From: Candidatus Saccharimonadota bacterium
Lineage (GTDB): Bacteria; Patescibacteriota; Saccharimonadia; Saccharimonadales; UBA4665
Assembly: GCA_025928155.1 (NCBI GenBank)
Contig: JAICKC010000007.1
Location: 1 to 64,000 of the forward strand
DNA: 64,000 nucleotides
Reading direction: 5' to 3'
How positions within the stretch are numbered: position 1 is the first letter of the stretch; the number at the start of each line of letters is the position of its first letter. Positions 45,505 through 51,109 of the stretch are shown here, in pieces. Position numbers and translations under genes: made by a program. The notes beneath the pieces were generated by a model, which had not been told where the DNA came from, did not search any database, and was given only the letters and a program-made list of their open reading frames with translations.

Positions 45505-45581
45505 GCCACCTTAGCTCAGTTGGCTAGAGCATCGCTTTCGTAAAGCGGGGGTCCGGGGTTCGAATCCCCGAGGTGGCTCCA
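45505..45581 (+). tRNA. tRNA-Thr(CGT) with encoded CCA and U discriminator
   Basis: GCCACCT/AGGTGGC acceptor, anticodon loop ttCGTaa, T-arm GGGGTTCGAATCCCC, TCCA end. Confidence 0.94.
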
Positions 45582-48655: not shown

Positions 48656-48732
48656 GGGCGATTAGCTCATTTGGCTAGAGCGCTTCCTTGACGTGGAAGA
48701 GGTGAGAGGTTCGAATCCTCTATCGCCCACCA
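48656..48732 (+). tRNA. tRNA-Val(GAC) with encoded CCA
   Basis: GGGCGAT/ATCGCCC acceptor, anticodon loop ttGACgt, GAGGTTCGAATCCTC T-arm, ACCA end. Confidence 0.93.
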
Positions 48733-48762: not shown

Positions 48763-48968
48763 TTGCCTGTATATTGTGTAGTAAAATCCGGCGGGCCCAG
48801 AAGGTGACGTCATGTGCGATATAAAGCAGTCAAATGAGTTTTCCACACTATCCACAGGCCGTAAAATATTCCTGCAAAAAAGTACTAGCCAAATCCGGCC
48901 ACAGGCCCTATACTACTTATCAGTGAGGCGAGGTTTTGCCGAGAGGTTTTACAAGGCAAAATTTTATG

Positions 48969-49010
48969 AAACTGTCGGACAACGTTGCGAGATTGCCCGA
49001 CAGTTTTTAT
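48969..49010 (+). terminator. Rho-independent terminator-like hairpin upstream of the thrS leader
   Basis: AAACTGTCGG…CCGACAGTTTTTA. Confidence 0.65.
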
Positions 49011-49020
49011 TTGTGATAAA

Positions 49021-49229
49021 ATCAGAGGTAAGCGAGGAAGTGGACTCACCAACCACAGAGCTTACGTCTTCAGGGAACAGACGCTAATAATTCCTTATGA
49101 GTGCTCCTTTAGTAGGGAGAAGTCCGGTGGAACCGCCCGTTCCAAACGCGAGATAAACATTTTGCGACACGGGTCCGAGACGTGAGATACGTGCAAAGCT
49201 GTCAATTTGCACGTATCCCACGTCTTTTT
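49021..49229 (+). promoter_or_regulatory. T-box leader upstream of thrS, with terminator
   Basis: GGTGGAACCGC T-box core at 49126-49136; short stem I GTAAGC…GTGG-actcaccaa-CCAC…GCTTAC at 49028-49065; terminator GACGTGaGATACGTGCAAA…TTTGCACGTATCcCACGTCTTTTTA at 49179-49230. Confidence 0.8.
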
Positions 49230-49252
49230 AATTAATCTATAAGGAGGCAAGT

Positions 49253-51109
49253 ATGTCCGAAAAGCAAGAAGACCAATTGTATGCCATGCGTCATAGCCTA
49301 GCGCATATTATGGCGAGCGCTACCCAGCACTTGTGGCCAAATGTAAAACTTGGTGTGGGGCCAGTGGTGGAAAGTGGATTCTACTACGATATCGACCTGG
49401 GCGACGAGCAGCTTTCCGTCGACGATTTTGAGCGTATCGAGGCCGAAATGCGCAAAATTATCAAGGCGGCCGAGCCGTTCGAACGGTTCGAAATGCCGAT
49501 CTTGGAAGCCATAGAATGGGCACGCCAGAATGAACAGCCGTATAAAGAAGAGTTGCTGAACGATCTGCAGCGTGCTGGTACTACGGTAGCAAAAGATTTG
49601 GACGCAACCGAACTCGGTTTGCCGGCTGAGGGCAAGGGCAAGGTCGACCAGGTATCATTTTACCGAAATGGTGACTTCACCGATTTGTGCCGGGGACCCC
49701 ACGTGGAATCAACTGACAAAGTCGGCGCCTTTAAGCTGATGCGGCTCAGCGGCGCCTACTGGCGGGGCAAAGAGGGTAACCCGCAGATGCAGCGCGTATA
49801 CGGCGTGGCATTTGCGACCGCCAAAGAACTTCGCCACTATCTGGATATGCTCAAAGAGGCTAAAAGGCGCGACCACCGTAAGCTCGGACAGGAACTCGAC
49901 CTGTTTGTATTTTCAGATTTGGTCGGCCAAGGCTTGCCACTATGGACACCCAGAGGCACTGTGCTCAAGAACGAACTAGATTGTTTTGTCCAAGAGCTGC
50001 GTGACAACGCTGGTTTTGAACAGGTTAGCATACCGCACATCACGAGAAAAGACCTCTATGAGGCCAGCGGCCACTGGGCAAAATTTAAGGATGAGCTCTT
50101 CCGTATTACGACGCGCGAAGGGCACGAGTTTGCTATGAAGCCGATGAATTGCCCACACCATACCCAGATCTATGCCTCTCGGCCTCGCAGTTATAGAGAT
50201 CTGCCAATCCGGTATCGGGACACGACCATGGTTTACCGGGATGAACAGAGTGGCGAGCTGGGGGGTTTAAGCCGTGTCCGTGGCATCACACAGGACGACG
50301 CACATATCTTTTGCCGCACAAGCCAGATAGAAGAAGAGGCCTTTAAACTCTGGGATGTCATCGAGACATTCTATACGGGGACCGGTTTCTCAGAGTTGAA
50401 GTACCGGCTCTCGGCGCATGACCCCGAGAACATGGCCGACTACGCAGGGAGCGCCGAAAAATGGAAGTCAAGCGTTGAGCAGCTGGAAAATATCCTTAAA
50501 GCCAAGGTCGGCTCTGACTACTTCGTCGGTGTGGGCGAAGCTGCGTTCTATGGTCCTAAGATAGACTTCATGGCTAAAGACGCGCTTGGCCGCGAACACC
50601 AGGTGGCTACGATACAGCTTGATTTCAATCAGCCGGAAGGTTTTAACCTGACTTGCACTAATGAAGACGGTGAAGCTGAGCGGATTGTGATGCTACACTG
50701 TGCGGTCATGGGTTCCCATGAGCGTTTCCTCTCCGTCTATATCGAACATACTGGTGGTAAGTTTCCGGTGTGGAATGCGCCCGAACAGGTACGGCTTATT
50801 ACTGTGAATCAGGAGAAGGCGACGGTTGAGCTTGCCGACGACGTTGTCCGGCGTGCTAAAGAGCTTGGCTTAAGAGTCAAGGTAGATAACGATAGTGAGT
50901 CTGTGGGTAAGAAAATCCGTTCGGCGGAGATTTGGAAGGTGCCGTACACTGTCGTAATTGGCGAAAAGGAAATTGCCGGCGGCGAGCTGGTGCCGCGGAT
51001 TCGCAGCGATCTTGTCGTTAATGAGACTACGAACAGTTATACCATGGACGAGTTTCTGAAGACGGTTGCCCACGAGGCTAAGAGCCGGGTAGCGAAAAGC
51101 TCGTTGTAG
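49253..51109 (+). CDS. thrS: Threonyl-tRNA synthetase
   Basis: Class II motifs, FAMKPMNCPHHTQIYASRPRSYRDLPIRYRDTTMVYRDEQSGELGGLSRVRGITQDDAHIFC; no N-terminal TGS domain apparent. Confidence 0.97.
   Translation: MSEKQEDQLYAMRHSLAHIMASATQHLWPNVKLGVGPVVESGFYYDIDLGDEQLSVDDFERIEAEMRKIIKAAEPFERFEMPILEAIEWARQNEQPYKEELLNDLQRAGTTVAKDLDATELGLPAEGKGKVDQVSFYRNGDFTDLCRGPHVESTDKVGAFKLMRLSGAYWRGKEGNPQMQRVYGVAFATAKELRHYLDMLKEAKRRDHRKLGQELDLFVFSDLVGQGLPLWTPRGTVLKNELDCFVQELRDNAGFEQVSIPHITRKDLYEASGHWAKFKDELFRITTREGHEFAMKPMNCPHHTQIYASRPRSYRDLPIRYRDTTMVYRDEQSGELGGLSRVRGITQDDAHIFCRTSQIEEEAFKLWDVIETFYTGTGFSELKYRLSAHDPENMADYAGSAEKWKSSVEQLENILKAKVGSDYFVGVGEAAFYGPKIDFMAKDALGREHQVATIQLDFNQPEGFNLTCTNEDGEAERIVMLHCAVMGSHERFLSVYIEHTGGKFPVWNAPEQVRLITVNQEKATVELADDVVRRAKELGLRVKVDNDSESVGKKIRSAEIWKVPYTVVIGEKEIAGGELVPRIRSDLVVNETTNSYTMDEFLKTVAHEAKSRVAKSSL

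Follow-up and report, generated by a model that had tools for sequence, protein, structure and literature searches.

According to a 2020 review, most translational T-box riboswitches carry an intermediate or ultrashort Stem I, whereas the transcriptional ones generally have a long Stem I that binds the tRNA elbow, and tRNA binding requires a kink-turn (K-turn) plus, for a short Stem I, a Stem II domain (PMC7583486). T-boxes were recorded in Firmicutes, Actinobacteria, Chloroflexi, Deinococcus/Thermus and two Proteobacteria in a 2008 census (PMC2494555), and TBDB searched for class II elements in Actinobacteria with a dedicated model (PMC7778990). We analyzed 64,000 nt from a Candidatus Saccharimonadota bacterium (positions 1 to 64,000 of contig JAICKC010000007.1, assembly GCA_025928155.1; hereafter the window), in which the threonyl-tRNA synthetase (ThrRS) gene thrS follows a predicted T-box leader. 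A preliminary description had proposed that this gene is controlled by a T-box whose Stem I is ultrashort, and comparison with homologous leaders supported the proposal through covariation, a threonine specifier in 100 of 100 leaders and a conserved -10 box. We consider it highly probable (about 0.93) that the leader is a T-box riboswitch acting on transcription, built on an ultrashort Stem I and lacking Stem II; its anatomy is predicted from sequence, and by analogy with known T-boxes it would sense the charging of tRNA-Thr before thrS.

Comparison with actinobacterial T-boxes was made through reviews. The thrS leader shares with the class II ileS T-boxes of Nocardia farcinica and Mycobacterium tuberculosis (PMC7583486) a short Stem I whose apical loop presents the specifier with a purine after it, a K-turn-like base (here at the level of sequence), what may be a IIA/B-like pseudoknot and a UGGN bulge in an antiterminator-type domain. 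However, the actinobacterial elements have a Stem II with an S-turn and a five-purine string and control translation, whereas the thrS leader has no Stem II and ends in a terminator. The likeness to this class suggested in the preliminary description extended to Stem I and the putative pseudoknot but not to Stem II or the mode of control, and as neither Stem II nor translational control was found when looked for, the leader was not classed as actinobacterial class II. Canonical transcriptional T-boxes (B. subtilis thrS and glyQS; Rfam RF00230) share with it the antiterminator/terminator switch, the UGGN bulge, the RRRNG-Stem III-AA series and an aminoacyl-tRNA synthetase target, but their long Stem I binds the tRNA elbow through an interdigitated double T-loop motif (IDTM), whereas the whole Stem I of the thrS leader spans 36 nt and hence has no IDTM. 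The glyQS T-boxes without Stem II likewise act on transcription; they offset the missing Stem II by a long elbow-binding Stem I, and the thrS leader has neither. On its defining sequence features the leader is classed as a T-box, and as predicted it joins features reported separately, namely an ultrashort Stem I, transcription termination and the absence of Stem II.

By its sequence, the stretch 49014-49255 reads as a promoter, then an ultrashort Stem I and a putative IIA/B-like pseudoknot, a short Stem III, and a T-box antiterminator overlapped by a Rho-independent terminator, with thrS behind them, as follows.

49014..49022, + strand: extended -10 box TGA-TAAAAT, from sequence; predicted start at about 49027-49029, at the Stem I base
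49029..49064, + strand: ultrashort Stem I, 36 nt (pair listing; covariation in both helices)
49029-33/49060-64 and 49040-43/49053-56, + strand: C-helix and NC-helix of Stem I, respectively (pair listing)
GA 49037-38 / GA 49058-59, + strand: K-turn-like bulge of Stem I, the K-turn being read from sequence alone
49044-49052, + strand: apical loop of Stem I, 9 nt
49048-50, + strand: specifier codon ACC, followed by purine A49051; Watson-Crick with the tRNA-Thr anticodon GGU
49065..49096, + strand: putative IIA/B-like pseudoknot (IIA 49065-69/49079-83, IIB 49072-77/49091-96)
49099..49121, + strand: RRRNG motif GAGUG (49099-103), Stem III (49104-107/49116-119) and AA (49120-121)
49122..49181, + strand: antiterminator (A1 49122-127/49175-181 with A49178 bulged, A2 49135-140/49169-174)
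49126-49136, + strand: T-box core GGTGGAACCGC, containing UGGA at 49128-49131
49128..49134, + strand: T-box bulge UGGAACC, whose UGGA complements the tRNA-Thr 3' end UCCA
49178..49229, + strand: Rho-independent terminator (stem 49178-49197/49206-49225, U's to 49229)
49241..49247, + strand: Shine-Dalgarno sequence AAGGAGG, from sequence, outside the terminator
49253..51109, + strand: thrS, threonine--tRNA ligase, 618 aa (NCBIfam TIGR00418, 604.7 bits against a cut-off of 383.65)
45505..45581, + strand: tRNA-Thr(CGT) (ARAGORN), one of the genome's three tRNA-Thr genes and a member of the candidate ligand family

The T-box core, its UGGA and the strong terminator before thrS lie where the preliminary description had placed them. 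Its Stem I at 49028-49065 was refined to 49029-49064; of the two loop codons it had offered, homologues identified ACC as the specifier, and ACU (49044-49046) is not the specifier. The putative pseudoknot adjoins Stem I directly, with no Stem II between them, in the window leader and in the aligned leaders alike.

Relatives were fetched with the window ThrRS, and the leaders of 13, the window leader included, were aligned. In this alignment, 88.1% of pair cells held standard pairs. The covariation anticipated in the preliminary description was found: compensatory changes occurred in 10 of the 20 pairs, and none of 500 shuffles came up to any observed measure. When pair partners were slid by one column, pairing fell to approximately 42%. 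Both Stem I helices carried compensatory changes, as did the antiterminator, which was paired in 77% (A1) and 97% (A2) of cells. We built a covariance model (R1) from this alignment with the Stem I and antiterminator helices marked. R1 scored 95 bits (E 6e-21) on the window leader, itself one of the 13 training sequences. Among 295 genomes sampled from the order, 123 had an R1 match, almost always a single one; they represent 76 of 143 genera, and the E-values reach down to 3e-22.

The leader statistics rest on 100 leaders of the order aligned by R1, four specifiers misparsed by the script being read by hand. All 100 stand upstream of thrS on the same strand, and 97 carry GA on both strands at the Stem I base, a K-turn-like arrangement. 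Loop positions 5-7 form a threonine codon in every leader (ACC 91, ACU 6, ACG 2, ACA 1), as the conservation of a threonine specifier predicted in the preliminary description would have it; the variation is confined to the wobble base, and all four synonyms occur. The base 3' of the specifier is always a purine (A 93, G 7), and the bulge is UGGA in 98 leaders and UGGG in 2. The proposed complementarity between the fourth base of UGGA and a U discriminator also held: tRNA-Thr(CGT) ends in UCCA, as do the GGT and TGT isoacceptors of the genome, so the bulge would pair with discriminator U73. The specifier ACC is best matched by the GGT isoacceptor, whose gene is present in the genome. A Stem III-like hairpin was recognized by a crude rule in about 33 of the 100 leaders and is elsewhere shrunk to an RRRNG-A-rich sequence.

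As a side observation on the bulge, three thrS leaders of one family (L215, L221, identical to L331, and L234; Doudnabacteria according to one named record) carry ACGGAAWC in place of UGGAACC, and the U that would partner tRNA A76 is lost. Another leader, L160 (G028:C1:191307-191429), matches R1 before thrS and is followed by a further terminator-like stretch near the gene; this leader may be duplicated or partly decayed.

Downstream of the antiterminator, 97 of 100 leaders have a terminator-like hairpin and a U-tract, compared to 5 of 100 control stretches taken from within thrS; in 90 of those 97 leaders, the terminator fold pairs the 3' strand of A1. In the window leader, the terminator (-29.3 kcal/mol) ends 23 nt before the thrS ATG (49253), the antiterminator reaches -19.2 kcal/mol when enforced, and the terminator 5' arm overlaps the A1 3' strand at 49178-49181, which both structures share. 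Translational control by Shine-Dalgarno sequestering was not found: the leader has a terminator with a U-tract, and the Shine-Dalgarno sequence at 49241-49247 lies outside it. On sequence, this is the anatomy of a transcriptional T-box that is OFF by default. Sequence supports the anatomy, the covariation, the codon identity, the discriminator match, the overlap of the alternative hairpins, and conservation. Working as known T-boxes do, the leader would be transcribed from the Stem I base, and its apical loop would offer the codon ACC to the tRNA-Thr anticodon GGU. The UCCA end of uncharged tRNA-Thr would then pair with the UGGA bulge and stabilize the antiterminator, which would block the terminator and allow thrS to be transcribed; the 3' end of charged tRNA-Thr could not dock, so that the stronger terminator would form and transcription would end before thrS.

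Related leaders were found beyond the order, with R1 matching in 58 of 380 genomes across the phylum. Of 40 matches inspected outside the order, approximately 35 stand before a ThrRS gene and show ACC, ACU or ACG as the loop codon. One match before glyS has the specifier GGC and the bulge UGGA, in agreement with tRNA-Gly U73 in that genome, and one before serS has AGC and UGGC, in agreement with tRNA-Ser G73; the tRNA-Ser found in the latter genome is the GGA isoacceptor, not GCT, which would read AGC. The leader is present in Candidatus Saccharibacteria bacterium YM_S32_TM7_50_20 (CP025011.1), Doudnabacteria and Dojkabacteria, and scores weakly in Magasanikbacteria and Uhrbacteria. Two very small thrS leaders outside the order (L210 and L228; 88-nt model match) retain Stem I and the antiterminator, and no pseudoknot or Stem III is visible in them.

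Sub-threshold RF00230 matches in 100 genomes of the order led to a second type, found before ileS. These leaders share the ultrashort Stem I, here with the loop CUAUCAA and AUC as specifier; their Stem II has an S-turn-like sequence, their bulge is UGGU, which agrees with tRNA-Ile A73 where checked, and they carry a terminator. A model of these leaders (R2) had matches in 145 of the 198 genomes scanned from the order, the window's own included; across the phylum, 134 of 380 genomes had one. In the window's own genome, the match (L374:101-301, corresponding to C22:20988-21188) is an ileS-type T-box with AUC, UGGU and a terminator, followed by an unassigned 178-aa open reading frame (ORF) and then ileS. 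R2 matches in the phylum also precede valS (mostly GUC), aspS (GAC, bulge UGGC) and tyrS (UAC). Among the ultrashort-Stem-I T-boxes before valS, aspS, tyrS and ileS in other Patescibacteria classes (L404-L443), specifier and discriminator complement mostly match. Outside the order, independent members carry specifiers that follow the gene (glyS GGC, serS AGC, ileS AUC, valS GUC, aspS GAC, tyrS UAC), and on this evidence related T-boxes are predicted phylum-wide on thrS, ileS, valS, aspS, tyrS, glyS and serS, with specifiers that mostly match. The ileS-type leaders occur in the same phylum as the thrS leader, often in the same genome, and likewise carry a terminator, but they retain the S-turn-like Stem II, the specifier AUC and the bulge UGGU, in which the thrS leader differs. 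Because R2 also scores some thrS, glyS and serS leaders (L202 42.6 bits, L018 25.1, L224 23.2), the two types are probably related. The Stem I loops are similar, CUAUCAA in the ileS type and CUACCAA in L018. It is speculation that the thrS type descends from an ileS type through replacement of U by C in the specifier. We further think it likely, with less assurance than for the T-box assignment itself, that the thrS leader represents a third architectural T-box class, with neither an elbow-binding long Stem I nor a Stem II, acting co-transcriptionally through the tRNA 3' end and a codon-anticodon match made in a small hairpin loop, within a phylum-wide set on Patescibacteria aminoacyl-tRNA synthetase genes.

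Several observations weigh against the T-box reading. The RF00230 search recommended in the preliminary description returned, at relaxed thresholds, only 21.9 bits (E 0.01) for the window leader against a cut-off of 93, compared to 95 bits with R1, and 0 of 20 related loci reached the cut-off. At curated cut-offs, Rfam found no T-box in the window, and RF00230 had no match above cut-off over 100 genomes of the order. More than half of the sampled genomes of the order had no R1 match, partly through strict filters, so control of thrS by a T-box is not universal in the order. According to the 2020 review, transcriptional T-boxes generally require a long Stem I, and Stem II is required with a short one; an ultrashort Stem I is associated there with slow switching at the level of translation (PMC7583486). 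One leader before valS (L440) seemingly combines AUC with UGGC. The IIA/B-like pseudoknot can be proposed with moderate confidence at most: a shuffle test on single leaders gave a weak signal, and in the swapped-halves test then applied, halves from the same leader scored 19.6 versus 15.6 for halves swapped between leaders (permutation z ~5). RNAfold on the single window leader did not cleanly reveal the antiterminator, and the leader part without the terminator was no more stable than shuffles (z -0.89). The case was built on comparison, not on folding energy. Other weak Rfam matches nearby (AaHKsRNA41, MIR164, rox2, MIR7504, PVT1_3) were judged to be chance or palindromic-terminator matches.

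The very low Rfam score, the missing Stem II and the lack of Stem III in many relatives would also suit a degenerate or non-functional T-box remnant. Compensatory changes, an invariant specifier logic and terminators conserved across 76 genera argue against decay, and we regard a remnant as very improbable. Despite the RF00230 score far below cut-off, the predicted thrS switch is a T-box by every sequence-level criterion applied above.

The promoter bears on a second explanation, ribosome-mediated attenuation, in which a ribosome translating threonine codons of a leader peptide would stall at ACC and thereby select the hairpin. Synonymous third-position changes in the specifier would equally fit a coding sequence, and a 91-aa ORF (48812-49087) reads ...SPTTELTSS across Stem I. 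However, 81 of 100 leaders have their best -10 match ending 3-4 nt upstream of model position 1, and a -10 score of at least 5 was reached by 96% of leaders compared to 9% of control stretches inside thrS. This conserved box just before the leader predicts a transcript that begins at Stem I, too close to the specifier for a ribosome site to fit ahead of it; the 91-aa ORF begins some 200 nt upstream of the predicted transcription start. Moreover, an in-frame start codon precedes the specifier in only 4 of 100 leaders, a single threonine codon position is conserved, inside a hairpin loop, and the UGGA bulge is left unexplained. Leader-peptide attenuation is therefore very unlikely.

At the E. 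coli thrS operator, ThrRS autoregulates by binding tRNA-like hairpins; a similar arrangement here, to which the regulated gene and the small anticodon-arm-like Stem I would lend themselves, is likewise very improbable, as the loop carries the codon ACC rather than an anticodon, the specifier shifts with the gene in glyS, serS, valS, aspS and tyrS leaders, and a terminator is present with the Shine-Dalgarno sequence free.

For the T-box reading, the preliminary description had held that a Patescibacteria case would be notable. The open-access papers searched yielded no report joining T-box riboswitches with Saccharibacteria, Patescibacteria, the candidate phyla radiation, TM7 or Parcubacteria, an absence that is not proof of novelty; the case is not a lone one but part of the phylum-wide set matched by R1 and R2. 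A 2024 review of Patescibacteria describes the mechanisms governing differentiation between states as completely unknown and mentions riboswitches just as synthetic tools (PMC11665869). If the reading is true, a tRNA-sensing circuit that occurs naturally in cells so reduced, and probably amino-acid-dependent, would rank among the first gene-regulation mechanisms described in Patescibacteria, and the leader could serve as a genetic tool. With a thrS leader that has a terminator and neither a long Stem I nor a Stem II, the smallest workable T-box becomes a directly testable question.

Further observations concern the surroundings of the leader and related loci. The antiterminator loop of the window leader holds a hairpin insert (49146-49168) with a TTKTGCGACAT-like sequence that recurs in about 11 of 100 thrS leaders (also L069, L092, L098, L101, L104, L107, L116, L128, L140 and L157). 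The word TTTTGCGACA occurs in two copies in the window versus 0.21 expected, and the insert is possibly a repeat element; the word TTGCGAGA of the upstream terminator was not enriched within the window. A gene for tRNA-Val(GAC) (48656-48732) lies directly upstream of the thrS leader, and tRNA-Val(GAC) likewise precedes the thrS T-box in a genome from another family of the same order (L035), which suggests that this gene order is conserved. In another genome (L375; G019:C5, minus strand), a T-box-like core UGGGACC and a terminator stand ahead of hisG; UGGG would suit tRNA-His C73, and the loop AUUCACGAC contains CAC in an uncertain register.
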